From Halopseudomonas laoshanensis (lineage in GTDB: Bacteria; Pseudomonadota; Gammaproteobacteria; Pseudomonadales; Pseudomonadaceae): DNA of 64,000 nucleotides. Both the position numbers and the translations under genes were made by a program. Under the pieces are notes generated by a model. The model did not search any database. It was not told the DNA's origin and saw only the letters and a program-made list of their open reading frames with translations. Numbering within the stretch: the first letter of the stretch is position 1; each line of letters starts with the position of its first letter. Below, piece after piece: positions 4,434 through 45,886 of the stretch. The stretch spans positions 434,001-498,000 of the forward strand of contig NZ_QOVF01000001.1 of the NCBI RefSeq assembly GCF_008365385.1, given 5' to 3'.

Positions 4434-5375
4434 ATGGATATTATTGGACTGGGTTACATGGGCTTTGAAGCCACTGACCTCGAAGCCTGGCGCGATTATG
4501 GCCCGTCGGTAATGGGTTTTGCGATAGGCAAGAATCCGGAAAGCGATCCGGATTCGCTGTATTTCCGTATCGATGATCGCCGCCACCGTTTTGCTTTCCA
4601 CCCTGGCAAGGTTGATCGGCTGGCCTACCTCGGTTGGGAAGCCAAAGGACGGATGCAATTCAAGGCAGCCTGCCAGACGTTTACCGATGCTGGCGTGGAG
4701 TTTAGCGTTGGAGACGCAGATCTGTGCGAGAAGCGCGGCGTCAAGGAACTGATCCGCTTCTTTGACCCGGTCGGTTTTCGGCATGAGCTGTTCTATGGGC
4801 AAAAATGGCTTCCCGACTCATTTGTGCCTGGGCGCCGCCATGGCGGCTACCTGGCTGACAAAAGAGGTCTTGGCCATGTCGTGTTGATGACGCCCGAGTT
4901 TCCGCCGGAACTGGAGCATTTCCTTATCAATATCATGGGCTTTCACTGGTACGGTTCGGGCGCGGGCAAGGGCAAGACCGGCTTTTTCCGCTCCAAGCTG
5001 AATACCTCCACCAGCCATGATATTGCCTACGGACACGCTCCGGGCCGTATGGGGATTCAACACGTCGGCATGTTCGTCGGCAGCCTGCGCGATGTGGGCG
5101 AGACCTACGATATCGTCAAGAAGCGCGAACTGCAGATGATGATGACACTGGGGCAGCATTCCCAGGACCCGCATGTTTCGTTCTACCACTTCAATCCGTC
5201 AGGCTTCGCCTTTGAGTGCATCGCTGAAAGTGAACCATGGCATGACGATGGGTTCGAGCTGAATCCGGAGAAGATGAGCGTGTGGGGCCACGAATTGGTG
5301 GGCCCGATTCTGGGGCCGAGCGTGAAAACCCCGGAAGAGGTGCGCGATCCGGAATTTACCGCCAAGAAAGCCTAG
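4434..5375 (+). CDS. ditC: type I extradiol ring-cleavage dioxygenase (DitC-like)
   Basis: A 313-residue two-domain vicinal-oxygen-chelate dioxygenase of the BphC/HsaC type. The C-terminal domain supplies the iron ligands His148 (LGHVV), His210 (IQHVG) and Glu261 (FAFECI). His195, His242 and Tyr251 stand where the second-sphere acid/base residues lie in this family. It should open the aromatic ring of an 11,12-dihydroxylated diterpenoid by meta cleavage, as described for ditC. The gene follows the SDR by 37 bases, behind a GAGGAGAAG ribosome-binding site. It is only distantly like DmpB at 50716, the second type I extradiol enzyme of the window. Confidence 0.9.
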   Translation: MDIIGLGYMGFEATDLEAWRDYGPSVMGFAIGKNPESDPDSLYFRIDDRRHRFAFHPGKVDRLAYLGWEAKGRMQFKAACQTFTDAGVEFSVGDADLCEKRGVKELIRFFDPVGFRHELFYGQKWLPDSFVPGRRHGGYLADKRGLGHVVLMTPEFPPELEHFLINIMGFHWYGSGAGKGKTGFFRSKLNTSTSHDIAYGHAPGRMGIQHVGMFVGSLRDVGETYDIVKKRELQMMMTLGQHSQDPHVSFYHFNPSGFAFECIAESEPWHDDGFELNPEKMSVWGHELVGPILGPSVKTPEEVRDPEFTAKKA

Positions 5376-5377
5376 CA

Positions 5378-6262
5378 ATGCACTTGGCTCGGGTAGAAGA
5401 CGCGGCGGGTGCGCGGTTCTGGGTTCTGTTGCATCTCGATACCGGGGCCAGCCAGCGCATCAACGCCCCGTTCTCTCAGTGGGCCGGCGAGGTCAATACC
5501 GGGAGTCTCTCGGCGCTTGATCTGTCGTCCACTATGCTCGAGCCGAATACGTTTCGTCTTGTGGCACCCATTGAGCCCGGCGCCCGGGTGTTCGGGGTCG
5601 GGCTCAATTATTTATCGCACCTGACTCGCCTGGGTAGTACCACGCCTGCTCATCCCCTCGCCTATATCAAACCCGATTCTGCCATCGTTGATCCCTACGG
5701 TATGATTTCCTATCCAGCGATGACCTGCGAGCTGGACTATGAGATTGAGCTGGTGGCGGTGGTCGGCAAGCCGCTGGGCGACGCCGCTGCCGCTTCGGCC
5801 TGTTTAATGGGTTACACCGTCGGCAATGATATCAGCGCGCGGGATGCCGGCCGTGCACTGGGGCGGCTTGATCTGTTGACTCAGAAGGGCATGGATGGCA
5901 CGACGCCGCTCGGGCCGTGGATTGCCACGCTTGATCAATGTGGCGGCGGCGGACAACCGCAGTTGGATATGTGCATGACCATCAATGGCGAAGTTCGGCA
6001 GCAGGACAATACTCGGGAAATGATTTTCGCAGTTGATGAACTGCTGAACTATCTGGATGCGCGTATCACGTTGCGCCCAGGGGATCTGGTTTTTACCGGA
6101 TCGACCCACGGGGTTGGACTGGAAGACGGACGTTTCCTGCAGCCAGGAGACGTTCTGGAAGCACAGATTGAGGGCATCGGCATGCTGCGAAATGAAGTTG
6201 GCCCGCAACGTATTCTTGCCCCGGCAAGGCAATCTGGGCGGCTAGGTTATCCCGCTGTCTGA
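5378..6262 (+). CDS. ditD: fumarylacetoacetate hydrolase family protein (DitD-like)
   Basis: The ATG at 5378 lies two bases after the ditC stop, so the 294-residue product is preferred to a longer frame starting inside ditC. It has the FAH fold signature: GLNYLSHL, the metal-binding acidic cluster in CELDYEIELV, GNDISARD and a C-terminal GDLVFTGST. Members hydrolyse C-C bonds of meta-cleavage products or act as isomerases or decarboxylases. Position after ditC suggests it handles the ring-fission product. It is clearly paralogous to the FAH gene at 20238, which shares the short N-terminal domain and GxNYLxHL motif. Confidence 0.85.
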   Translation: MHLARVEDAAGARFWVLLHLDTGASQRINAPFSQWAGEVNTGSLSALDLSSTMLEPNTFRLVAPIEPGARVFGVGLNYLSHLTRLGSTTPAHPLAYIKPDSAIVDPYGMISYPAMTCELDYEIELVAVVGKPLGDAAAASACLMGYTVGNDISARDAGRALGRLDLLTQKGMDGTTPLGPWIATLDQCGGGGQPQLDMCMTINGEVRQQDNTREMIFAVDELLNYLDARITLRPGDLVFTGSTHGVGLEDGRFLQPGDVLEAQIEGIGMLRNEVGPQRILAPARQSGRLGYPAV

Positions 6263-6295: not shown

Positions 6296-7885
6296 ATGAA
6301 TCAAGGGGCCACCTGGTATCCGTTAAAGCACCGTCAGTTTCGCCTGTTCTGGAGCGCCGGTGCAGTCATCAATATTGCGATCTGGATGCAAACAGTAGGT
6401 GCTGCCTGGATCATGGTTGGGCTCACCGATTCAGCCTGGATGGTGTCGCTGGTGCAAACCGCCATGACCCTGCCGGTGTTTCTGTTCGGCTTGCCCGGCG
6501 GAGTGATTGCGGACCTGGTGAATCGCAAATACTGGCTGCTGTTCACTCAGTCGGTGATGCTGACAGCCGCGAGCATACTGTTTATCTTGGCCGCTACCGG
6601 CAGCCTGAGCGCCTGGATGCTGTTGTCGCTGACCTTTTTACTGGGCACCGGAAGCGCGCTGAGCATGTCAGCGTGGATGGCCGTCACTCTTACACTGATC
6701 CCGCGGGAAATCGTGCCTGCGGCGGTCGCGCTCAACGCTATTTCAACCAATGTTGCTCGCGCACTGGGCCCCGCCATCGGCGGCCTGCTTATTGCTGTCG
6801 CAGGCCAGGCTTCGATGTTTCTTTTGATCGCCTGTTGTTTTATGGGGGTGATCCTATTTCTGATTGGTTGGCGGCCTGTCCGAGTCAGTAATGTGCTGCC
6901 CCCTGAGACTTTCCTCGGCGGTATGCGCAGTGGTCTGCGCTATATACGTCATTCCGTCTCCTTGATCAGCTCGCTGAAACAGGTATTTATCTTTACCAGC
7001 TGCGCCAGTGCACTGTGGGCGTTACTGCCTTTGATAGCCAAGGACCAGCTGCAGATGGAAGCGGGCGGCTATGGCCTGTTAATGGGGGCGTTGGGTGCAG
7101 GCGCGGTGATCGCTGCGGTCAATCTCACGCGTCTATATCGTCTTGTGGCGCTGCGCCGGCTGGTTGTTGTGGGGGCAGTTGCTTTTGCGCTGGTCACCGC
7201 AGCGGTGTCGCTGACTGACGTGGTCTGGCTGGTCTGGCTGCTTCTGGTTGTCGCTGGCATTGCCTGGATGGCAGTCAATGCCACGGTCGCTACCATTGTG
7301 CAAACCTGCGCGGCTGATTGGGTTAGAGCCCGAGTCGCTTCGGTATATTTGCTCATGTATATGGGCGCGATGGCGGCTGGCGGCGCGGTGTGGGGGCTGG
7401 TTGCGGATCACCTCGGGCCGACCAATAGCCTGCTGCTGTCTGCGGTAAGTATTGTCCTCGGGCTTTGGTTGACGCGCGATGGCGTCTTCGTATTGGGTAG
7501 CGAGGCTGATTACCGCACGGTATCGCAAACTGACAAGCTGGTGGTGGCCGCCGAGATCAATCACTCTGACGGTCCGGTGTCGGTCGAAATCAGTTATCGG
7601 GCGCTGAATGAGTTCCACCAGGACTTTATAAAGTGTGCTTACGCAGTGGGCCAGTCGCGGCGGCGTAACGGAGCGCGCAACTGGCGACTTTACCGTGACC
7701 TGGCCGACCCAAACCGTTTTGTAGAGCGTTTTATAGTAGAGTCCTGGCTGGGCTACTTGCGGCAAAGAGATAGGGTTACTCAGGCCGATCAGAATACGGA
7801 GAGCCAGTTGCTGCGCTACGTCATCAGTACGGATGTTGCCACCAAGCGCTACATCCATCAGCCGAATGCACTGGGCGAATGGTGA
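6296..7885 (+). CDS. ditE: MFS transporter with C-terminal cytosolic domain (DitE-like permease)
   Basis: A 529-residue major facilitator protein. About 400 residues hold some 11-12 hydrophobic segments. A soluble tail of roughly 110 residues follows (about 420-529), rich in Arg, Tyr and Trp. That layout matches the MFS_3 or 'transmembrane secretion effector' family. The dit cluster of BKME-9 encodes a permease, DitE, at the same place next to the regulator. Uptake or efflux of the diterpenoid are both possible; the family includes exporters. It follows ditD by 33 bases, with a GAGG site before its ATG. Confidence 0.82.
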   Translation: MNQGATWYPLKHRQFRLFWSAGAVINIAIWMQTVGAAWIMVGLTDSAWMVSLVQTAMTLPVFLFGLPGGVIADLVNRKYWLLFTQSVMLTAASILFILAATGSLSAWMLLSLTFLLGTGSALSMSAWMAVTLTLIPREIVPAAVALNAISTNVARALGPAIGGLLIAVAGQASMFLLIACCFMGVILFLIGWRPVRVSNVLPPETFLGGMRSGLRYIRHSVSLISSLKQVFIFTSCASALWALLPLIAKDQLQMEAGGYGLLMGALGAGAVIAAVNLTRLYRLVALRRLVVVGAVAFALVTAAVSLTDVVWLVWLLLVVAGIAWMAVNATVATIVQTCAADWVRARVASVYLLMYMGAMAAGGAVWGLVADHLGPTNSLLLSAVSIVLGLWLTRDGVFVLGSEADYRTVSQTDKLVVAAEINHSDGPVSVEISYRALNEFHQDFIKCAYAVGQSRRRNGARNWRLYRDLADPNRFVERFIVESWLGYLRQRDRVTQADQNTESQLLRYVISTDVATKRYIHQPNALGEW

Positions 7886-34525: not shown

Positions 34526-34574
34526 TTACACATCCTCGAATTGGTAGGTAGCTTACAGCTTGGCTAAGAAACTA

Positions 34575-34595
34575 TACATAATGTTAAAAAGTGTC
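34575..34595. promoter_or_regulatory. putative dit operator 5 (TACAT-N11-GTGTC)
   Basis: ACAT (34576-34579), 11 bases, GTGT (34591-34594), upstream of the minus-strand SDR gene. It marks the right-hand limit of the repeated dyads seen in this window. Confidence 0.4.
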
Positions 34596-34675
34596 AATAT
34601 GTTCCGACTAAAGCGTAGGCGAGCCTTGAATTGATGCTAACTAGGCCCCCGTTAAAACAGCTTCGCCGGTAAACT

Positions 34676-34882
34676 TCAATCCAACGGTGGTTCTACAAAC
34701 CTCACTAGCTCTCCACGCGAATTAATAATAGATAGAGGTCCTATGGTGGATTTGCTCATGGTTTCGTCTTGGGCCTTAGGCATGACCGTGCCATAAATTT
34801 TCAGCCAGCCCTTTTGGCCAAAGTCTCCCTCAATAAACACAGCAGATTTCCTGGTCTCAGGGTAGTTTTCGCCATATCGGTT
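34676..34882 (-). pseudogene. C-terminal remnant of an unknown protein
   Basis: On the minus strand a 68-residue frame, with no start codon at its head, runs into a stop at 34676. Its composition is protein-like (KSAVFIEGDFGQKGWLKIYG, then VMPKAQDETMSK, ending GELVRFVEPPLD). It begins right after an in-frame stop at 34883-34885, so it looks like the decayed 3' end of a gene. The family is not recognised. Confidence 0.4.
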
Positions 34883-35100
34883 TCACCCAAATCTGATCCG
34901 CGGGACGGTATGACTCACGCAATGCCGATTTAAGCACAGAGTGCTGAGAAAGCTGTTACCACCTCACAATCTGTCGCTGGCCCTGCTGACTCGGCAGGAA
35001 GGCATGTCCTGGCAGACGCTATCTAATTGTCGCCAACAAGCCAAGGCTTGAGGGGCTGCTGTGCCAGGAGATCAAAAGCCGACTAACTCTTTTCCGGAAA

Positions 35101-35394
35101 TTGAAGTTCTGCCCTCAATGGAAGCAGAACGGCTTTGCCCGTCTGGAAGAGGCCAGGGTCAGTGACTTTATGCGCTTGTACGGCCACGAGCACCGGCATC
35201 AGGGCCTAGATGCTACCGTTCTTGCAAAGCGACACGAAGTGTATGAGCGGGCCTATGCTGAACGCCCGAGGCGCTGCTCACGACACAAGAGAAACTGGCA
35301 GCCTGTCAGGGGTGTAGCACTGAACCCTGAGAGGCTTGAAGTAGCGCAGAAAGAAGCTGACACATGCTTGGTTAGCTTTCTTCCAGGCATATGA
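35101..35394 (+). pseudogene. truncated IS3-family transposase (OrfB C-terminus)
   Basis: The frame reads LYGHEHRHQGL, then LAKRHEVYERAYAERPRRCS and RNWQPVRGVALNPE. This is the integrase C-terminal region of IS3-group transposases: a variant of wYNxEHRHSGL followed by the PxRWSxxtRxWxPvxxVxLNPE tail. The catalytic DDE core upstream and the usual KFVTPAQRH segment are missing, so only a scar remains. Terminal inverted repeats were not found. Confidence 0.65.
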
Positions 35395-35673
35395 GTCGTT
35401 GCTGTGCATCGCAGGCCATGAACGGTTGGTTGTGGATAGCCTTCTGCATGCTCTGCAAACCTTTGCCAACTCAGTATTGGTAACGTACGAACTCAAGGAG
35501 GAGAGGTTAAAGTGCGGCGGGGAAGCCAGTAACTAACACTGCTCCCAGAAGTTTGACTGTAGACACGGGCGGCGGCGTCCGCAAACCAGAGAATAGTTTA
35601 TAAGCCCATCTTCTGGTGGTTCCGGAGCAACCGCCTTTGGCTAAGTTCGAGGAACTCGTGTCTGGTAACGGTG

Positions 35674-35859
35674 CTAGGAACGACCAGCCGCCGCATTCAA
35701 GATCCAAGCTTCAACCTCATGCTTCAGCCAACGACTGGCTTTACCGATTTTAACCTGCCTCGGAAATTCTCCATTCTTAATCCGTGCGTAGATGGATTTT
35801 CTACTTAGACTGACTTTATCTGACACCTCGTGGAAGTTCAGCAGAACCAGATCAGTCAT
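35674..35859 (-). CDS. AlpA-family phage/island transcriptional regulator
   Basis: The start at 35859 follows GGAGGCGCACC. The 61-residue product has the AlpA helix-turn-helix (VSDKVSLSRKSIYARIKNGEF, then WLKHEVEAWI). Proteins of this family control integrase or excision genes of prophages and genomic islands. No integrase is present beside it, so it is probably an orphan of a decayed element near the island edge. Confidence 0.75.
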   Translation of the reverse strand: MTDLVLLNFHEVSDKVSLSRKSIYARIKNGEFPRQVKIGKASRWLKHEVEAWILNAAAGRS

Positions 35860-36172
35860 GGTGCGCCTCCCCATTAACTCCTAGAAGAGGTAATACAGTT
35901 TTATTATTGATCTTTTTTCGGTTAAACATTTTATTTGCCCTTAGCCAGGGCATCCGTGCGTTATTTCTACCCGTTCAATTCGACTGCGTGCCCAAGGGAT
36001 AGATGGCATCGCAGTAGCACGCGGGAGGTTCTGGCAAGACCTCATAGACAAATACTATTGTAATGAGCCTAATCGGTCAATAAATAATCCTTGACATTTT
36101 TATAGCCACCTATTTCCATGCTGTCAACTCTTAAGAGCGCTGAGTTGTAGGTGTGCTTTCCAAGGAGAGTTA

Positions 36173-36223
36173 ATGTGTATGCTGGTTTGTATGCTGTATT
36201 TTATAAAATTCATAATATGTTGA
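36173..36223 (+). CDS. possible 16-residue hydrophobic leader peptide
   Basis: ATG at 36173 follows AAGGAGAG at six-base spacing. It encodes MCMLVCMLYFIKFIIC and stops. The strong ribosome-binding site is the only evidence; no gene follows downstream on this strand for it to regulate. It may be a chance ORF or a remnant of an element. Confidence 0.2.
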   Translation: MCMLVCMLYFIKFIIC

Positions 36224-36249
36224 TATACATATAAAAATACATGTAAATA

Positions 36250-36269
36250 GAATCCAGTCTCCCCGACCA
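36250..36269 (+). other. tRNA-Pro 3'-end fragment, candidate attachment site
   Basis: The 20 bases GAATCC...CCCCGACCA reproduce the T-arm 3' half, acceptor strand and CCA of a proline-type tRNA. The sequence just upstream is AT-rich and contains no anticodon or D-arm. Such isolated 3' fragments are made when an island integrates in a tRNA gene, leaving the intact tRNA at the other end. Given the orientation, the intact copy and the island would lie to the left. Confidence 0.5.
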
Positions 36270-36480
36270 AATCCTTTTTCAGGTGTTCCCACTCTGTCTC
36301 ACCGCCGCCCTGGACCCGCTGGGGCGAGCCTTGCGGCTCTCAGCCTTTTCTCGTTATGTCTCTTTGTAGCTATCCATTGGAGAAACCGAGAGCATTGGTA
36401 TCCCTTAACCGGAAGATCAAAGCTTAGTTTATATACTGGAAATGTAGGGCTCGCCATTGCCTGAAGAGATTTGTCTGGGC

Positions 36481-36505
36481 AAAAAAAAGCCCGCTAAGCG
36501 GGCTT
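36481..36505 (-). terminator. intrinsic terminator of the DUF1329 operon
   Basis: On the minus strand an 8-bp stem AAGCCCGC / GCGGGCTT (36487-36505) is followed by a run of T (36488-36481 complement). It lies 30 bases after the DUF1329 stop. Confidence 0.8.
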
Positions 36506-36534
36506 AAAGGGGAGCAGCTTACTCCACAACAAAA

Positions 36535-42270: not shown

Positions 42271-43272
42271 TCAGTTAGTACTGGCCGCTAAGGCCTTTGG
42301 GAGTGGAATATTCAGCAGGAGCCCTCGGCCACCAGCCGCCAGAAGGTGCTGATTGGGAAGCAAACGCCCTGCGCGCAGATAGAGGGGTTGATCAGGCGTG
42401 GTCAGGGGCGTCCAGCGCTGGCCGCGCAGTTGCAGCACGGTGGCGTTTTCACCTACCGCGTAGAGTCCTTGCGGGCCATCAATAAAGCCAAAGATGGGTG
42501 CTTCGGTGCCGGTACGCTGACGTTGCCAGGTCACTCCGGCATCGCTGGTGTGCCAGATAAACCCATTCAGTCCGCCGACCCACCCTTGCTCCAGAGAGGT
42601 GTAGTGACTGGCGTGCGGATAGAACTCATCCGGCAGGCTGCCGGAAGTCTCCCAATTGCGGCCACCGTCTACGGTAACGAACCGCAAGCCGTACTCCCCG
42701 GTGACGATAGCTTGCTCGTCATTGACGAACTGCAGGGTGGTAAATATGGCATCCTCGTCGAGGCTCATCTCATCCCAGGTCTGACCTTGATCGGCACTGC
42801 TTTGCAAGGTGCTGAATGCGCCTGCCGCCCACCAGCTGCCATCAGGCGCGCAAGTCGCCGCCATCATCTGTTCACTGCTGGGCAGTGCGTGAGCAGTCCA
42901 GTTCTGTGCCTGGGGATCGGCATGCCAGAGTTGGTTATCGAAGCTCAGGGCAATAAAACTGCCATCGGGGCAGACATCCAGATCGATCAGACTCATATCG
43001 GTAGGTAGCTGTTGGCGCTGCCATTGCTGCCCGTTATCCAGGCTGCTTACAGCCACACCTTGATTACCAACCAACAGGGTGACCTGTGCATTGCTGGCCA
43101 TTGCCTGATAGAAATCGGTACGCTGATTTGGCTGTTTTGCCTGTTGGGTAACGGCATCCAGGTCAAGAGCGGCTTCGCAACCGCTCAATACCACCCCAAG
43201 GCTGACAAGGGCGATAGAAGGGAAAAGACGTATTAACGGAGGGCGCTCAAAGCGCCGTAGGGCAATTAACAT
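42271..43272 (-). CDS. YCF48-like lipoprotein with BNR-type repeats
   Basis: The start at 43272 is favoured over an ORF start at 43371 because the sigma-54 promoter at 43324-43339 places transcription start near 43313. The 333-residue product then begins with a lipoprotein signal (LVSLGVVLSGC). Repeats with the Asp-box pattern (DQGQTWDE, DGGRNWET, DAGVTWQR) form a beta-propeller as in photosystem-II assembly factor YCF48. It is likely an envelope scaffold for the RND transporter and barrel. Confidence 0.82.
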   Translation of the reverse strand: MLIALRRFERPPLIRLFPSIALVSLGVVLSGCEAALDLDAVTQQAKQPNQRTDFYQAMASNAQVTLLVGNQGVAVSSLDNGQQWQRQQLPTDMSLIDLDVCPDGSFIALSFDNQLWHADPQAQNWTAHALPSSEQMMAATCAPDGSWWAAGAFSTLQSSADQGQTWDEMSLDEDAIFTTLQFVNDEQAIVTGEYGLRFVTVDGGRNWETSGSLPDEFYPHASHYTSLEQGWVGGLNGFIWHTSDAGVTWQRQRTGTEAPIFGFIDGPQGLYAVGENATVLQLRGQRWTPLTTPDQPLYLRAGRLLPNQHLLAAGGRGLLLNIPLPKALAASTN

Positions 43273-43323
43273 GTACGCCACCACTGTTTGTTTTTGTATA
43301 AGCAAAGCGACTACGCAGCATGT

Positions 43324-43339
43324 AGCAACGCCCATGCCA
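43324..43339 (-). promoter_or_regulatory. sigma-54 (-24/-12) promoter of the RND/DUF1302/DUF1329 operon
   Basis: On the minus strand TGGCATGGGCGTTGCT has GG at 43338-43337 and GC at 43326-43325 with exactly ten bases between them, matching consensus TGGCAY-N5-TTGCW. Transcription would start near 43313, 41 bases before the lipoprotein ATG. Confidence 0.75.
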
Positions 43340-43448
43340 GCATGCTGGGCGCGCCCGATTTCTGATTTCAAGTTATTGTAAAGTTTGAGTTTTATTGTTT
43401 TGTTCGTGCTGAGGAATGGGCTCAGGAGAGCCTAGGCGTCCAAGAAAT

Positions 43449-43464
43449 TTGATCAATTGATCAA
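43449..43464. promoter_or_regulatory. DmpR/XylR-type upstream activating site 1 for the RND operon
   Basis: TTGATCAATTGATCAA is a perfect 16-bp palindrome. Its centre is about 130 bases upstream of the -12 element of the minus-strand sigma-54 promoter, the normal distance for XylR/DmpR activators. It lies downstream of the dmpR stop, so it does not serve dmpR. Confidence 0.7.
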
Positions 43465-43484
43465 CTCTCCTGGAGCTGTTTCTC

Positions 43485-43496
43485 TTTTGATCAAAA
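43485..43496. promoter_or_regulatory. DmpR/XylR-type upstream activating site 2 (partial)
   Basis: TTTTGATCAAAA is a 12-bp palindrome centred 34 bases upstream of site 1, about three helical turns away on the same face. Paired sites of this kind are the rule for XylR-class enhancers. Confidence 0.5.
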
Positions 43497-43554
43497 GCGC
43501 AAAATGCCAGTCGTCGTGACGAAGAGCAGGTCTAGGGGGGAGGAGCGGAAAGCG

Positions 43555-45264
43555 TCAGAGGGTATGTGAAACGTCACTTTTTTTCAGTCGGTAAGCTAGT
43601 GCCGGTCGGCTCAGGCCAAGCAGCCGGGCAGCTTTTGATACGTTCTGTTCGGCCATCTGCATGGCTTTGTGCATCAGTTGCTGCTCTAGTGTTTCAAGGC
43701 TGATGCCTTCCGCGATGATACGGCTGGCCCAATCGCCCTCCGCCACCGCCGTCGACTGCACGTCGACAAGCTGTCCCGTGGCGTTAAGACGTTCCTCGTG
43801 TTTGCTGTCCGGATCGTCGGGGAATACCGCAAATAACGAGTCCTGGCTGATTGTTTCGTTGCTGTCGGTCAGGATCACTCCGCGCTCGATCACATTCTCG
43901 AGTTCACGAATATTACCCGGCCAACGATAACGAAGGCATAGCTCCAGTGCTTTGTCTGAAAAGCCCAACGTGCGTTTGCTGTATTCGTTATGGAATTTTT
44001 TCAGAAAGTGTTCTGCCAATAGCGGAAGGTCTTCCAAGCGCTCGCGCAAGGGAGGAATCTTGACCGGGAACACATTCAATCGGTAGTACAGGTCTGCGCG
44101 GAAGCGCCCGTTCTCCACCGCTTCGGCAAGTGATTCGTTGGTGGCGGCAATGACGCGAACGTCAATGCTGCGGGTGCGATGATCGCCGACCCGTTCGAGC
44201 TCGCCTTCCTGCAGAACCCGCAACAAGGTCGCTTGCGCGCGGGGGGACAGCTCAACCACTTCATCGAGGAAAATGGTACCGCCGTGAGCTCGTTCAAAAC
44301 GGCCCTGGCGAGACTGGCTGGCGCCGGTGTAGGCGCCTTTTTCCACGCCGAACAGTTCTGCCTCAATCAGGTCCGGCGGGATAGCGGCGCAGTTCACTGC
44401 TACGAAGGGTTGCTCAGCGCGCTCACTGCTTAGGTGCACGCTGCGTGCGATAACTTCCTTGCCAACCCCGGTTTCACCAAGCAACAGCACCGAAACCTTG
44501 CCTTTGGCGGCCTTGTCGATCATCTGACACACGGTCTTGTAGGCGTGGGACTGGCCTATACCATAATACTGCCCCTGCTGCTTTTCCAGGCTGGTACGCA
44601 GTGAACTCACCTGGCTCTGCAGGTCGTATAACTCCTCGATAATCGGGTCGCTGCGAAAGTACTGCTTGAACTCCTCTGCGTCCTCCCACTCTTCTGCAGG
44701 CTTGCCGGTAATCAGGCATTTTTCATCTCCGCAGCCACGGCAACTGGTCTCACGGAAGATGATTTCTCGGCCCATAAAAGAAGAGGTATAGGCGCATGCA
44801 TATCCCAGCAGCGCCCAACACGCGGGATCTTCCATCATGCCCAGTTCAGTTTGGCAGATCTCTACTTCGAAAGAGTCGATCCACTCCAACTCACCGTAAA
44901 AATGGCCGGATTGCTGATCCAGGTCGATCTGAATCGGCCGCACCTTGACCATGCCCTTGAGTGAATGCAGTTGAGGGCCAGCGAGAAAGATGTCCAGCTC
45001 GCTGGAGTGGGGTCGCAGATGGCGCGCAAGTTCGGCGTCCTTTACTCCGGACTGGTAGCCCATGCGCATGAAGAAGCCCTTGGCCCGTTCAATCCCCAGG
45101 CTATTGACCAACTCGCGGCGGAAATTCGCCATGGAGGATACCTGCATCAGAAGCATCCGCTGTTCGCCAAACCAGATTTTCCCTTCAGCACTTTGAAAGC
45201 GAATTTGCTCGCTCAGATCAAGGTAATCCGAGTATTGGACCTGGGGCTTGTAGCTGATCGCCAT
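43555..45264 (-). CDS. dmpR: sigma-54-dependent phenol-responsive activator DmpR
   Basis: A 569-residue regulator. It has the XylR N-terminal aromatic-sensing domain (about 20-120), a V4R domain with the zinc-type cysteines (CRGCGDEKC, near 175-185), an AAA+ domain with Walker A GETGVGKE and the sigma-54 contact loop GAYTGA, and a Fis-type HTH at the C-terminus (SKAARLLGLSRPALAYRL). The loop has Tyr where GAFTGA is usual. It binds phenols directly and activates sigma-54 promoters. It is divergent from dmpK, as in known dmp systems. Confidence 0.95.
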   Translation of the reverse strand: MAISYKPQVQYSDYLDLSEQIRFQSAEGKIWFGEQRMLLMQVSSMANFRRELVNSLGIERAKGFFMRMGYQSGVKDAELARHLRPHSSELDIFLAGPQLHSLKGMVKVRPIQIDLDQQSGHFYGELEWIDSFEVEICQTELGMMEDPACWALLGYACAYTSSFMGREIIFRETSCRGCGDEKCLITGKPAEEWEDAEEFKQYFRSDPIIEELYDLQSQVSSLRTSLEKQQGQYYGIGQSHAYKTVCQMIDKAAKGKVSVLLLGETGVGKEVIARSVHLSSERAEQPFVAVNCAAIPPDLIEAELFGVEKGAYTGASQSRQGRFERAHGGTIFLDEVVELSPRAQATLLRVLQEGELERVGDHRTRSIDVRVIAATNESLAEAVENGRFRADLYYRLNVFPVKIPPLRERLEDLPLLAEHFLKKFHNEYSKRTLGFSDKALELCLRYRWPGNIRELENVIERGVILTDSNETISQDSLFAVFPDDPDSKHEERLNATGQLVDVQSTAVAEGDWASRIIAEGISLETLEQQLMHKAMQMAEQNVSKAARLLGLSRPALAYRLKKSDVSHTL

Positions 45265-45443
45265 GGCGTCTGCCTATTTTTTATTAGCGGGCTGCGTCCG
45301 GCTGGGTGTGTCTCATAGTGATCCAGGAGCCGGCGGTTTTATCTCTTTATCTTCTACTCGTATTTACCAAAAAATCAACCAGATGATGAAAAAGTGGGCC
45401 GCTGCAGTCAGGGCTGAGCATTTGAGTGAACAGGGGTAGCAAC

Positions 45444-45459
45444 TTGATCAAATGATCAA
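45444..45459. promoter_or_regulatory. DmpR upstream activating site of the dmp operon
   Basis: TTGATCAAATGATCAA, a near-perfect palindrome in the 370-bp dmpR-dmpK gap. It is centred about 144 bases upstream of the -12 element. A second, weaker candidate lies near 45375-45390. Confidence 0.75.
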
Positions 45460-45580: not shown

Positions 45581-45595
45581 TGGCACAAGCGTTGC
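45581..45595 (+). promoter_or_regulatory. sigma-54 (-24/-12) promoter of the dmp operon
   Basis: TGGCACAAGCGTTGC: GG and GC are ten bases apart, and both half-elements match the sigma-54 consensus exactly. Transcription would start near 45607, 28 bases before dmpK. Confidence 0.85.
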
Positions 45596-45634
45596 TCTGT
45601 TGCTTTCACAACACCAAGCACAGGTCCCGACCTT

Positions 45635-45886
45635 ATGAGCCAGCCCGCACAAACTTTTGATCAGATGCCACGTTATGTCCGTGTGCGCAGTGAGCCTGGG
45701 GCTCGCCTGGTCGAGTTCGACTTCGCCATCGGCCATCCCGATTTGTTTGTAGAACTGGTTCTTCCCAGTGCCGCCTTCGAGCATTTTTGTCAGCACAACC
45801 GTGTTCAGCATATGAGCGAAGAGATGGCTCGGGCGGTGGATGAAGAAATGATCAAGTGGCGATTTGGTGAACATGGAAGTCGCTGA
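45635..45886 (+). CDS. dmpK: phenol hydroxylase assembly subunit DmpK
   Basis: The ATG at 45635 gives 83 residues; the longer frame starts upstream of the predicted transcription start. The sequence (YVRVRSEPGARLVEFDFAIGHPDLFVELVLP) is the DmpK/PoxA phenol-hydroxylase accessory family. DmpK is needed to load iron into the oxygenase and is not part of the active enzyme. First gene of the operon. Confidence 0.92.
   Translation: MSQPAQTFDQMPRYVRVRSEPGARLVEFDFAIGHPDLFVELVLPSAAFEHFCQHNRVQHMSEEMARAVDEEMIKWRFGEHGSR

Follow-up and report, generated by a model that had tools for sequence, protein, structure and literature searches.

A predicted DmpR/sigma54-type promoter before a probable exporter operon beside the phenol hydroxylase genes of Halopseudomonas laoshanensis

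In the 64,000-nucleotide stretch of the H. laoshanensis genome that was analysed here (the window), a dmpR gene sits between phenol-degradation genes and the genes of a probable pump. The phenol hydroxylase operon runs on the plus strand from position 45635, divergently from dmpR, and the gene of a YCF48-type protein, the first of the presumed efflux operon, follows dmpR on the same minus strand at a spacing of 282 bp. A Pfam scan of the window found all four families of this operon (DUF1302, DUF1329, YCF48 and MMPL) in one cassette, and no Rfam match to a structured RNA reached the gathering score between 33600 and 46000. The genes concerned are the following.

45635-45886, plus strand: dmpK-type gene, first in the phenol hydroxylase operon (Pfam PF06099)
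45264-43555, minus strand: dmpR, XylR/DmpR-type sigma54 activator, 569 amino acids (Pfam XylR_N, V4R, Sigma54_activat, HTH_8)
43272-42271, minus strand: YCF48-type protein, 333 amino acids, with a lipobox-like LSGC; gene 1 of the efflux operon (Pfam PF14870)
42260-39807, minus strand: RND/MMPL inner-membrane transporter, 817 amino acids (Pfam PF03176)
39759-37879, minus strand: DUF1302 protein, 626 amino acids, presumed outer-membrane component by analogy with AmeA (Pfam PF06980)
37863-36535, minus strand: DUF1329/LolA-like protein, 442 amino acids, presumed periplasmic by analogy with AmeB (Pfam PF07044, PF17131)

The original prediction for this DNA had fixed the start of the YCF48 gene at the ATG at 43272, a choice supported by a GGTGG sequence in the window and by a ribosome-binding site of the GGTGA type in relatives; an alternative, longer reading frame (TTG, 43371) would start upstream of the promoter of the operon. 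Putative promoter elements were found on both sides of dmpR.

43339-43324, minus strand: sigma54 -24/-12 element TGGCATGGGCGTTGCT (GG-N10-GC) of the efflux operon, read directly
43464-43449, minus strand: proximal DmpR-type upstream activating site TTGATCAATTGATCAA, read directly, a perfect match to TTGATCAANTGATCAA
43494-43479, minus strand: distal, degenerate DmpR-type site TTGATCAAAAGAGAAA with 4 mismatches, from the site-pair scan
45414-45429, plus strand: distal, degenerate DmpR-type site CTGAGCATTTGAGTGA of the dmp promoter with 6 mismatches, from the site-pair scan
45444-45459, plus strand: proximal DmpR-type site TTGATCAAATGATCAA of the dmp operon promoter, read directly
45581-45596, plus strand: sigma54 -24/-12 element TGGCACAAGCGTTGCT of the dmp operon, read directly

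The efflux element TGGCATGGGCGTTGCT matches the consensus at 10 of 11 positions and lies exactly where the original prediction had placed it; a transcription start of the efflux operon is predicted near 43313. The site at 45444 and the element at 45581, which had been claimed to be of the same kind, are both present in the dmp promoter. The two palindromes proposed upstream of the efflux element are found at the positions given for them, but they are really one double site, composed of two abutting copies of TTGATCAA, plus one half-degenerate site. The centre of TTGATCAATTGATCAA lies 131 bp before the centre of the -12 GC, that of the distal 16-bp site lies 161 bp before it and 30 bp above the proximal site, and an 8-mer TTGATCAA at 43494-43487 (minus strand) is centred 165 bp from the -12 GC. 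This layout agrees with the rule for DmpR promoters, namely paired palindromes and a -24/-12 element with GG-N10-GC, the centres of the pair being 29-42 bp apart and usually 100-200 bp upstream according to PMC6449761. An IHF site was rejected as a defining part of these promoters; of the 22 promoters scanned on either side, eight efflux and eight dmp promoters have it without mismatch, yet the IHF-like site in the window has 1 mismatch and is equalled by 12% of shuffles, which is chance level.

The window contains five copies of the octamer TTGATCAA, where 1.17 would be expected and none of 100 shuffles had as many; four of the five copies fall in the efflux and dmp promoters. The -24/-12 pattern TGGCNYN5TTGCW alone is unenriched, with three occurrences against 1.23 expected, a count reached by 13 of 100 shuffles. 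When the whole assembly (4,106,373 bases) was scanned, TTGATCAANTGATCAA was found without mismatch at two places, both adjoining dmpR, and with one mismatch at three more. The strict pattern TGGCAYN5TTGCW has 23 matches in the genome versus 3 for the reversed pattern; when DmpR sites were sought 90-170 bp upstream of each, only two of the 23, those flanking dmpR, proved to have a good one (0 and 1 mismatch), and the best upstream DmpR site of the remaining 21 has 6-10 mismatches. By these strict criteria, to which the count is restricted, the genome would possess two DmpR promoters. The rarity of the combination in the genome, together with its conservation among relatives, argues against palindromes that arose by chance. 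Nor does the arrangement appear to be common to DUF1329 cassettes: of the 11 DUF1329 genes in the genome, all ten outside this operon are more than 10 kb away from all five DmpR places with 0-1 mismatches. One strict -24/-12 match (C1:1356786, minus strand) lies about 4 kb from an opposite-strand DUF1329 gene, and a DmpR site is absent there (8 mismatches).

With a cut-off of E<=1e-30, the YCF48 gene was found in 22 of 298 genomes of the family Pseudomonadaceae, H. laoshanensis itself being counted; in a second collection, the named YCF48 relatives belong to five Halopseudomonas, two Pseudomonas sp. strains and Marinobacter zhejiangensis (8 loci). The gene order was read from stretches around the 21 other YCF48 genes and from two additional stretches. 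In 20 of the 22 family genomes, the first recognised gene upstream of the YCF48 gene is a co-directional dmpR, at a gap of 240-775 bp. The contig of G058 ends between the two genes, and in G171 (locus L060) dmpR shares a contig with the cassette but is 9-10 kb away from it, the cassette being on the other strand. Twenty-two efflux promoters were scanned along with shuffles, those of 21 of the 22 YCF48 genomes (without G058) and that of M. zhejiangensis (L035); the search admitted site pairs spaced 29-32 bp apart whose proximal member lies 100-160 bp from the -12, and it treated the shuffles identically. All 22 promoters have a -24/-12 element scoring 10-11 of 11 and a best DmpR-site pair 29-31 bp apart, and in each of the 22 loci none of 400 dinucleotide shuffles was as good. 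The distance of the proximal site from the -12 GC falls into two classes, 118-122 bp in 8 loci and 130-134 bp in 14, which differ by about one helical turn. Its mismatches among relatives range from 0 to 5, and the distal site is weak, with 4-5 mismatches in 19 of the 22 promoters; the weakest pairs, those of L048 and L050, have 5 mismatches in each site. On the dmp side, the -24/-12 score is likewise 10-11 in all 22 promoters scanned, and 120-154 bp separate the proximal site from the -12. The contig end behind dmpR in G058, assessed without shuffles, has an 11-of-11 element and, at 133 bp, a site with 2 mismatches; a -24/-12 element and a DmpR-like site are kept in all 22 YCF48 genomes of the family and in M. 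zhejiangensis. In an alignment of ten of the 22 promoters, of which L041 and L042 stop short of the DmpR sites, the -24/-12 core is invariant and the surrounding DNA has diverged, and element and site pair persist down to a YCF48 identity of 54-58%. Part of this conservation is shared descent: the genomes are related and the 22 loci form 11 groups at 80% YCF48 identity, and therefore neither the counts nor the Fisher value given below represent independent events.

These comparisons bear on an alternative in which the -24/-12 element and the palindromes are irrelevant, and the efflux operon owes its expression mainly to an unnoticed sigma70 promoter or to transcription that reads through from dmpR. 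Because no terminator-like site was found in 43200-43700, read-through is possible, and the chance-level frequency of -24/-12 matches alone in the window would be in keeping with it. However, no sigma70-like site was found in 43200-43700 either, element and pair are kept in all 22 promoters with the two distance classes separated by about one helical turn, and both are retained in the promoter of L060, whose operon lies on the other strand at 9-10 kb from dmpR. We regard this alternative as very improbable; the best reading of the DNA is that a DmpR/sigma54 promoter would drive the efflux operon.

More distant cassettes of the same class are present at 8 loci in 7 of 368 other genomes, at 36-41% identity. 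No full dmpR was found near these eight; at L146, the edge of the stretch contains a piece of 39% identity, about 7.8 kb off. Only L144 has a -24/-12 element with a possible DmpR site before its cassette, and a wider DmpR-efflux link across the class was not seen in the eight, with L144 as a possible exception. The cassettes of L139, L141 and L142 lie near genes for phenol-hydroxylase-type enzymes or extradiol dioxygenases.

The large subunit of phenol hydroxylase (cut-off E<=1e-100) was found in 53 of the 298 family genomes, with 21 of the 22 YCF48 genomes having it versus 32 of the 276 others (Fisher p 7e-17, calculated without regard to relatedness). The one YCF48 genome in which it was not found, G187, is a fragmented assembly in which a 5.3-kb contig carries part of dmpR along with YCF48 and RND. 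One stretch was examined for each of the 32 hydroxylase genomes without YCF48. In Pseudomonas CF600, dmpR is divergent from the dmp operon, with an upstream site pair and a -24/-12 element, as is the case here; unlike the H. laoshanensis locus, 21 of these dmp-type loci, with a 55-65% identical DmpR, show no efflux cassette within the 11.6-16 kb read. A lone 27% identical DUF1329 match was seen in L113, and no dmpR was found within the stretches of L096 and L118. Nine loci have a less similar hydroxylase (62-66%), and eight of these possess a 44-46% identical, LapR-like regulator of the DmpR family together with a distant RND/YCF48/DUF1329 set (24-35% identity) running in the same direction; L119, the sole such locus that was Pfam-scanned, also contains a chemotaxis receptor and a DUF1302 protein. 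In this they are similar to the LapR locus that PMC6449761 describes in Azoarcus BH72.

The DmpR protein of the window comprises a sensor with XylR_N and V4R domains, a sigma54-interaction AAA+ domain and a Fis-type HTH domain, and rpoN is present in the genome. The alignment of this DmpR with the CapR/DmpR chain 6iy8, which covers residues 19-478, is free of gaps. The residues on either side of the phenol hydroxyl in the 6iy8 structure, His100 and Trp128 (PMC7264223), are retained, as are the pocket residues Phe93, Phe122, Tyr155 and Tyr159 named in the same paper; Tyr90 is replaced by Leu and Val113 by Ile. Since Leu90 and Ile113 differ from DmpR, a compound other than phenol may be the best inducer. 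The operon could thus be sigma54-dependent and yet respond predominantly to a cresol, an alkylphenol, a metabolite or a second activator rather than to phenol, a reading favoured not only by the two pocket replacements but also by the variation of effector range among DmpR-family members (PMC4630880), by the predicted control of the same four families through AphS, AphR or AphT elsewhere (PMC6449761), and by the LapR-like regulator beside these families in eight of the nine loci just mentioned. It is countered by the finding of only one DmpR-like protein in the genome at E<=1e-80, by the match of the efflux site to its counterpart in the dmp promoter of H. laoshanensis itself, and by the preservation of His100 and Trp128 in a gap-free alignment; we consider it quite unlikely. 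Because both sides of dmpR carry the same kind of sensor-controlled switch, phenol probably induces breakdown and pumping together. The co-induction of the transport and dmp operons by phenol through DmpR and sigma54, as originally predicted, gains support at the sequence level from the rarity of the sites, the promoters, the gene order, His100/Trp128 and the co-occurrence with phenol hydroxylase.

A scan of the mRNA leaders pointed to a possible further layer of control.

43295-43288, minus strand: AANAANAA (CA) motif AAAAACAA in the YCF48 mRNA leader, after the -12 element and before the ribosome-binding site; a candidate site for Hfq/Crc
45285-45278, minus strand: AANAANAA motif AATAAAAA in the dmpR leader

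AANAANAA corresponds to the CA motif of Hfq/Crc near translation starts (PMC5429807 and PMC3003667). It occurs in the YCF48 leaders of all 22 loci (17 of 17 unique ones), against 1.08 expected from shuffles and 0 of 22 for the complement pattern, and it is present in the leader of G058 as well, giving 23 of 23 efflux leaders. It was found in 5 of 22 dmpK leaders, and in the dmpR leader stretch of all 22 loci (scored without shuffles), although in L048 and L050 it is confined to the first codons. As a background rate, the motif stands no more than 50 nt before the longest start in 5 of 46 long frames of the window and, with dmpR itself counted, in 57 of 412 frames from the loci of relatives; a single copy is therefore weak evidence, and it is the conservation that carries weight. 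CrcZ was found in the genome. The conserved motif suggests a second, translational lock on the efflux operon. Leader control of dmpR is reportedly the subject of Madhushani et al. 2015. The literature passages covered make no mention of Hfq/Crc control of this cassette.

As to the function of the cassette, the AmeABCD system of Castellaniella comprises a DUF1302 outer-membrane protein, a DUF1329 and a COG4447 periplasmic protein and a COG1033 HAE3 RND protein, and its deletion lowers monoterpene tolerance and raises the accumulation of Nile Red (PMC6394551). Like the H. laoshanensis cassette, it unites DUF1302, DUF1329, COG4447 (YCF48-type) and COG1033 (HAE3 RND) beside a degradation pathway, a likeness that was judged here by Pfam families and not by COGs; unlike it, AmeABCD concerns monoterpenes and has another gene order, and a DmpR-type control is not described in the passages available of PMC6394551. 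Since the four families match AmeABCD and its exporter-like deletion phenotype, export appears the likelier direction, and by this analogy the four proteins most likely form a tetrapartite HAE3-type exporter of hydrophobic compounds. It is conceivable that the regulation is as proposed and that the cassette nevertheless takes up or moves a hydrophobic substrate or outer-membrane material instead of exporting; against uptake stands the fact that phenol enters cells without a carrier. For such a role one may cite the DUF1302 and DUF1329 proteins in the nanopods of phenanthrene-grown Delftia (PMC3110197), the impaired growth on phenanthrene after deletion of a Delftia DUF1329 gene, the benzene-transport role proposed for a similar cluster (both PMC13101534), and the reduced growth on monoterpenes of an ameB transposon insertion (PMC6394551). 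The lower tolerance and stronger Nile Red accumulation of the AmeABCD deletion in that same paper fit export, and we judge the uptake reading to be unlikely, although it merits some attention; the exporter remains our preferred reading.

The supposition that the link between phenol degradation and such a transport system had not been described is refuted by two earlier studies. The study of the AphR/AphS/AphT regulons we take to be that of Suvorova and Gelfand 2019. It lists COG4447, COG1033, PF07044 and DUF1302 among the predicted members of the AphS, AphR and AphT regulons in Betaproteobacteria, and suggests that they play a role in coping with toxic aromatics (PMC6449761, 2019). The closest case is AphR of Burkholderia sp. 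383, in which, as here, a XylR/DmpR-type phenol hydroxylase regulator is associated with the same four families; the paired palindromes of the AphR regulon are, similarly, mostly three helical turns apart. It differs from the present system in its betaproteobacterial host and in being a prediction, the cassette is elsewhere under AphS or AphT, and the passages available of PMC6449761 leave an Hfq/Crc motif unmentioned. In Aromatoleum aromaticum EbN1 (2015), it was shown genetically that EtpR is needed for the expression of a catabolic and an efflux cluster, the transcripts of both being absent upon its deletion (PMC4630880). As in H. laoshanensis, the gene of an NtrC-type regulator lies between catabolic and efflux clusters with sigma54 motifs at both; in contrast, EtpR serves an anaerobic p-ethylphenol pathway, a narrow effector range is suggested for it, and its efflux cluster is ebA326-ebA335 (PMC4630880). 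Among the matches listed from the openly licensed literature, no report of DmpR control of this cassette in Pseudomonadaceae was found. The finding is already known in kind; what is added is the instance in the Pseudomonadaceae, its conservation, the Hfq/Crc-type motif and a plasmid copy.

We suggest that DmpR, once bound to a phenolic effector, would act from upstream sites on two sigma54 promoters that flank its own gene, the right-hand one driving the dmp phenol hydroxylase operon and the left-hand one (43339-43324) driving the YCF48-RND-DUF1302-DUF1329 operon. The exporter would lower the cell's load of phenols or alkylphenols during degradation, as is thought of AmeABCD for monoterpenes, and through AANAANAA in the dmpR and efflux leaders Hfq/Crc would probably hold down translation for as long as better carbon sources last. 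The model as a whole, with DmpR controlling both the dmp and the exporter operons and Hfq/Crc acting on activator and pump, is one that we hold with considerable confidence.

The 3' side of dmpR is also used in other ways. A -24/-12 element is present there in L097, L104 and L106, with a DmpR site of 2 mismatches some 86 bp before it in L097 and L106, and a Pfam scan identified the gene after the element as a catechol 1,2-dioxygenase gene in L097 and L104. The Pseudomonas veronii plasmid NZ_CP142043.1 (L130), which is typed as conjugative, carries dmpK-P, dmpR and a gene of the YCF48 type; an 11-of-11 -24/-12 element is preceded there, at 133 bp, by two sites that are 29 bp apart, and the AANAANAA motif is present too. 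Since its annotated YCF48 frame begins about 200 bp past the predicted start, this gene may be broken; the record stops short of any further genes of the cassette. A blastn search found no plasmid copies of the window's own intergenic DNA. We tentatively propose, with slightly more doubt than conviction, that the region 3' of dmpR serves as a slot into which a second unit under DmpR control can be placed, either the exporter or catechol 1,2-dioxygenase, the exporter version being a doubly locked, mobile module. The exporter would be carried by Halopseudomonas-like genera, M. zhejiangensis and, at least with its first gene, a conjugative Pseudomonas plasmid, and the catechol 1,2-dioxygenase gene by some Pseudomonas; with Hfq/Crc acting on the mRNAs of activator and pump, the two locks would be effector and carbon status.

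DmpR is a model sensor for biosensors and enzyme screens. The locus offers a testable case of one regulator with two promoters flanking its gene that differ in spacing and, apparently, in translational control. If our reading is true, the DUF1302, DUF1329 and YCF48 proteins would gain an inducer and a likely role, and degradation and tolerance would be wired together in the Pseudomonadaceae, as they are in Aromatoleum.

Judged against the IHF consensus, an IHF-like site lies 29-42 bp upstream of the -24 element in 21 of the 22 scanned promoters of the efflux operon (YCF48, RND/MMPL, DUF1302 and DUF1329 genes), and is perfect in eight of the 22; its spacing to the -24 element falls mostly into two classes, 29-31 and 39-42 bp. 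The IHF-like site of the window's own efflux promoter is weak. Candidate Hfq/Crc-type motifs are present in the leaders of both the efflux operon and dmpR:

43288-43295, minus strand, candidate Hfq/Crc-type motif AANAANAA, efflux operon leader
45278-45285, minus strand, candidate Hfq/Crc-type motif AANAANAA, dmpR leader

Among the loci scanned, this motif was found in all 22 efflux operon leaders and in all 22 dmpR leaders.

The DmpR protein itself carries GAYTGA, rather than GAFTGA, as its sigma54-contact motif (residues 310-315; window 44320-44337). Tyrosine occupies the variable position in 14 and phenylalanine in seven of the 25 loci that possess the cassette or its dmpR (the search pattern was unmatched in four), and tyrosine is likewise found in 21 of the 31 loci without the cassette (unmatched in ten).

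In some relatives' dmp-type loci lacking the efflux cassette, -24/-12 elements are also found 3' of dmpR, namely in L097 (5165-6281), L106 (5202-5297) and L104 (5319-6285), all of which contain dmp genes; a DmpR-like site accompanies the element in L097 and L106, and catechol 1,2-dioxygenase is the next gene in L097 and L104. Locus L107 has a DmpR-type site with one mismatch immediately 3' of dmpR (6307-6322), no -24/-12 element scoring at least 10 (of 11) near it, and a next long frame (4625-6172) without a match in a Pfam scan.

At the other end of the window's operon, the approximately 2 kb past DUF1329 (34526-36534) contain no open reading frame above 97 amino acids and no Rfam match. The 4.1-Mb genome encodes 11 DUF1329 genes, among which the window's copy has the lowest family-profile score.

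In Pseudomonas veronii, dmp genes occur with dmpR and a YCF48 gene on a plasmid (NZ_CP142043.1, 262804-275089) that has been typed as conjugative; the plasmid's source was groundwater at a site contaminated with aniline. This YCF48 gene, which is possibly broken, has the same promoter anatomy as the efflux promoters of the window and its relatives.

In loci L119-L121 and L123-L127, a LapR-like regulator with 44-46% identity to DmpR adjoins a distant form of the efflux cassette and another type of phenol hydroxylase. These loci are a second lineage of the association between cassette, regulator and phenol hydroxylase.
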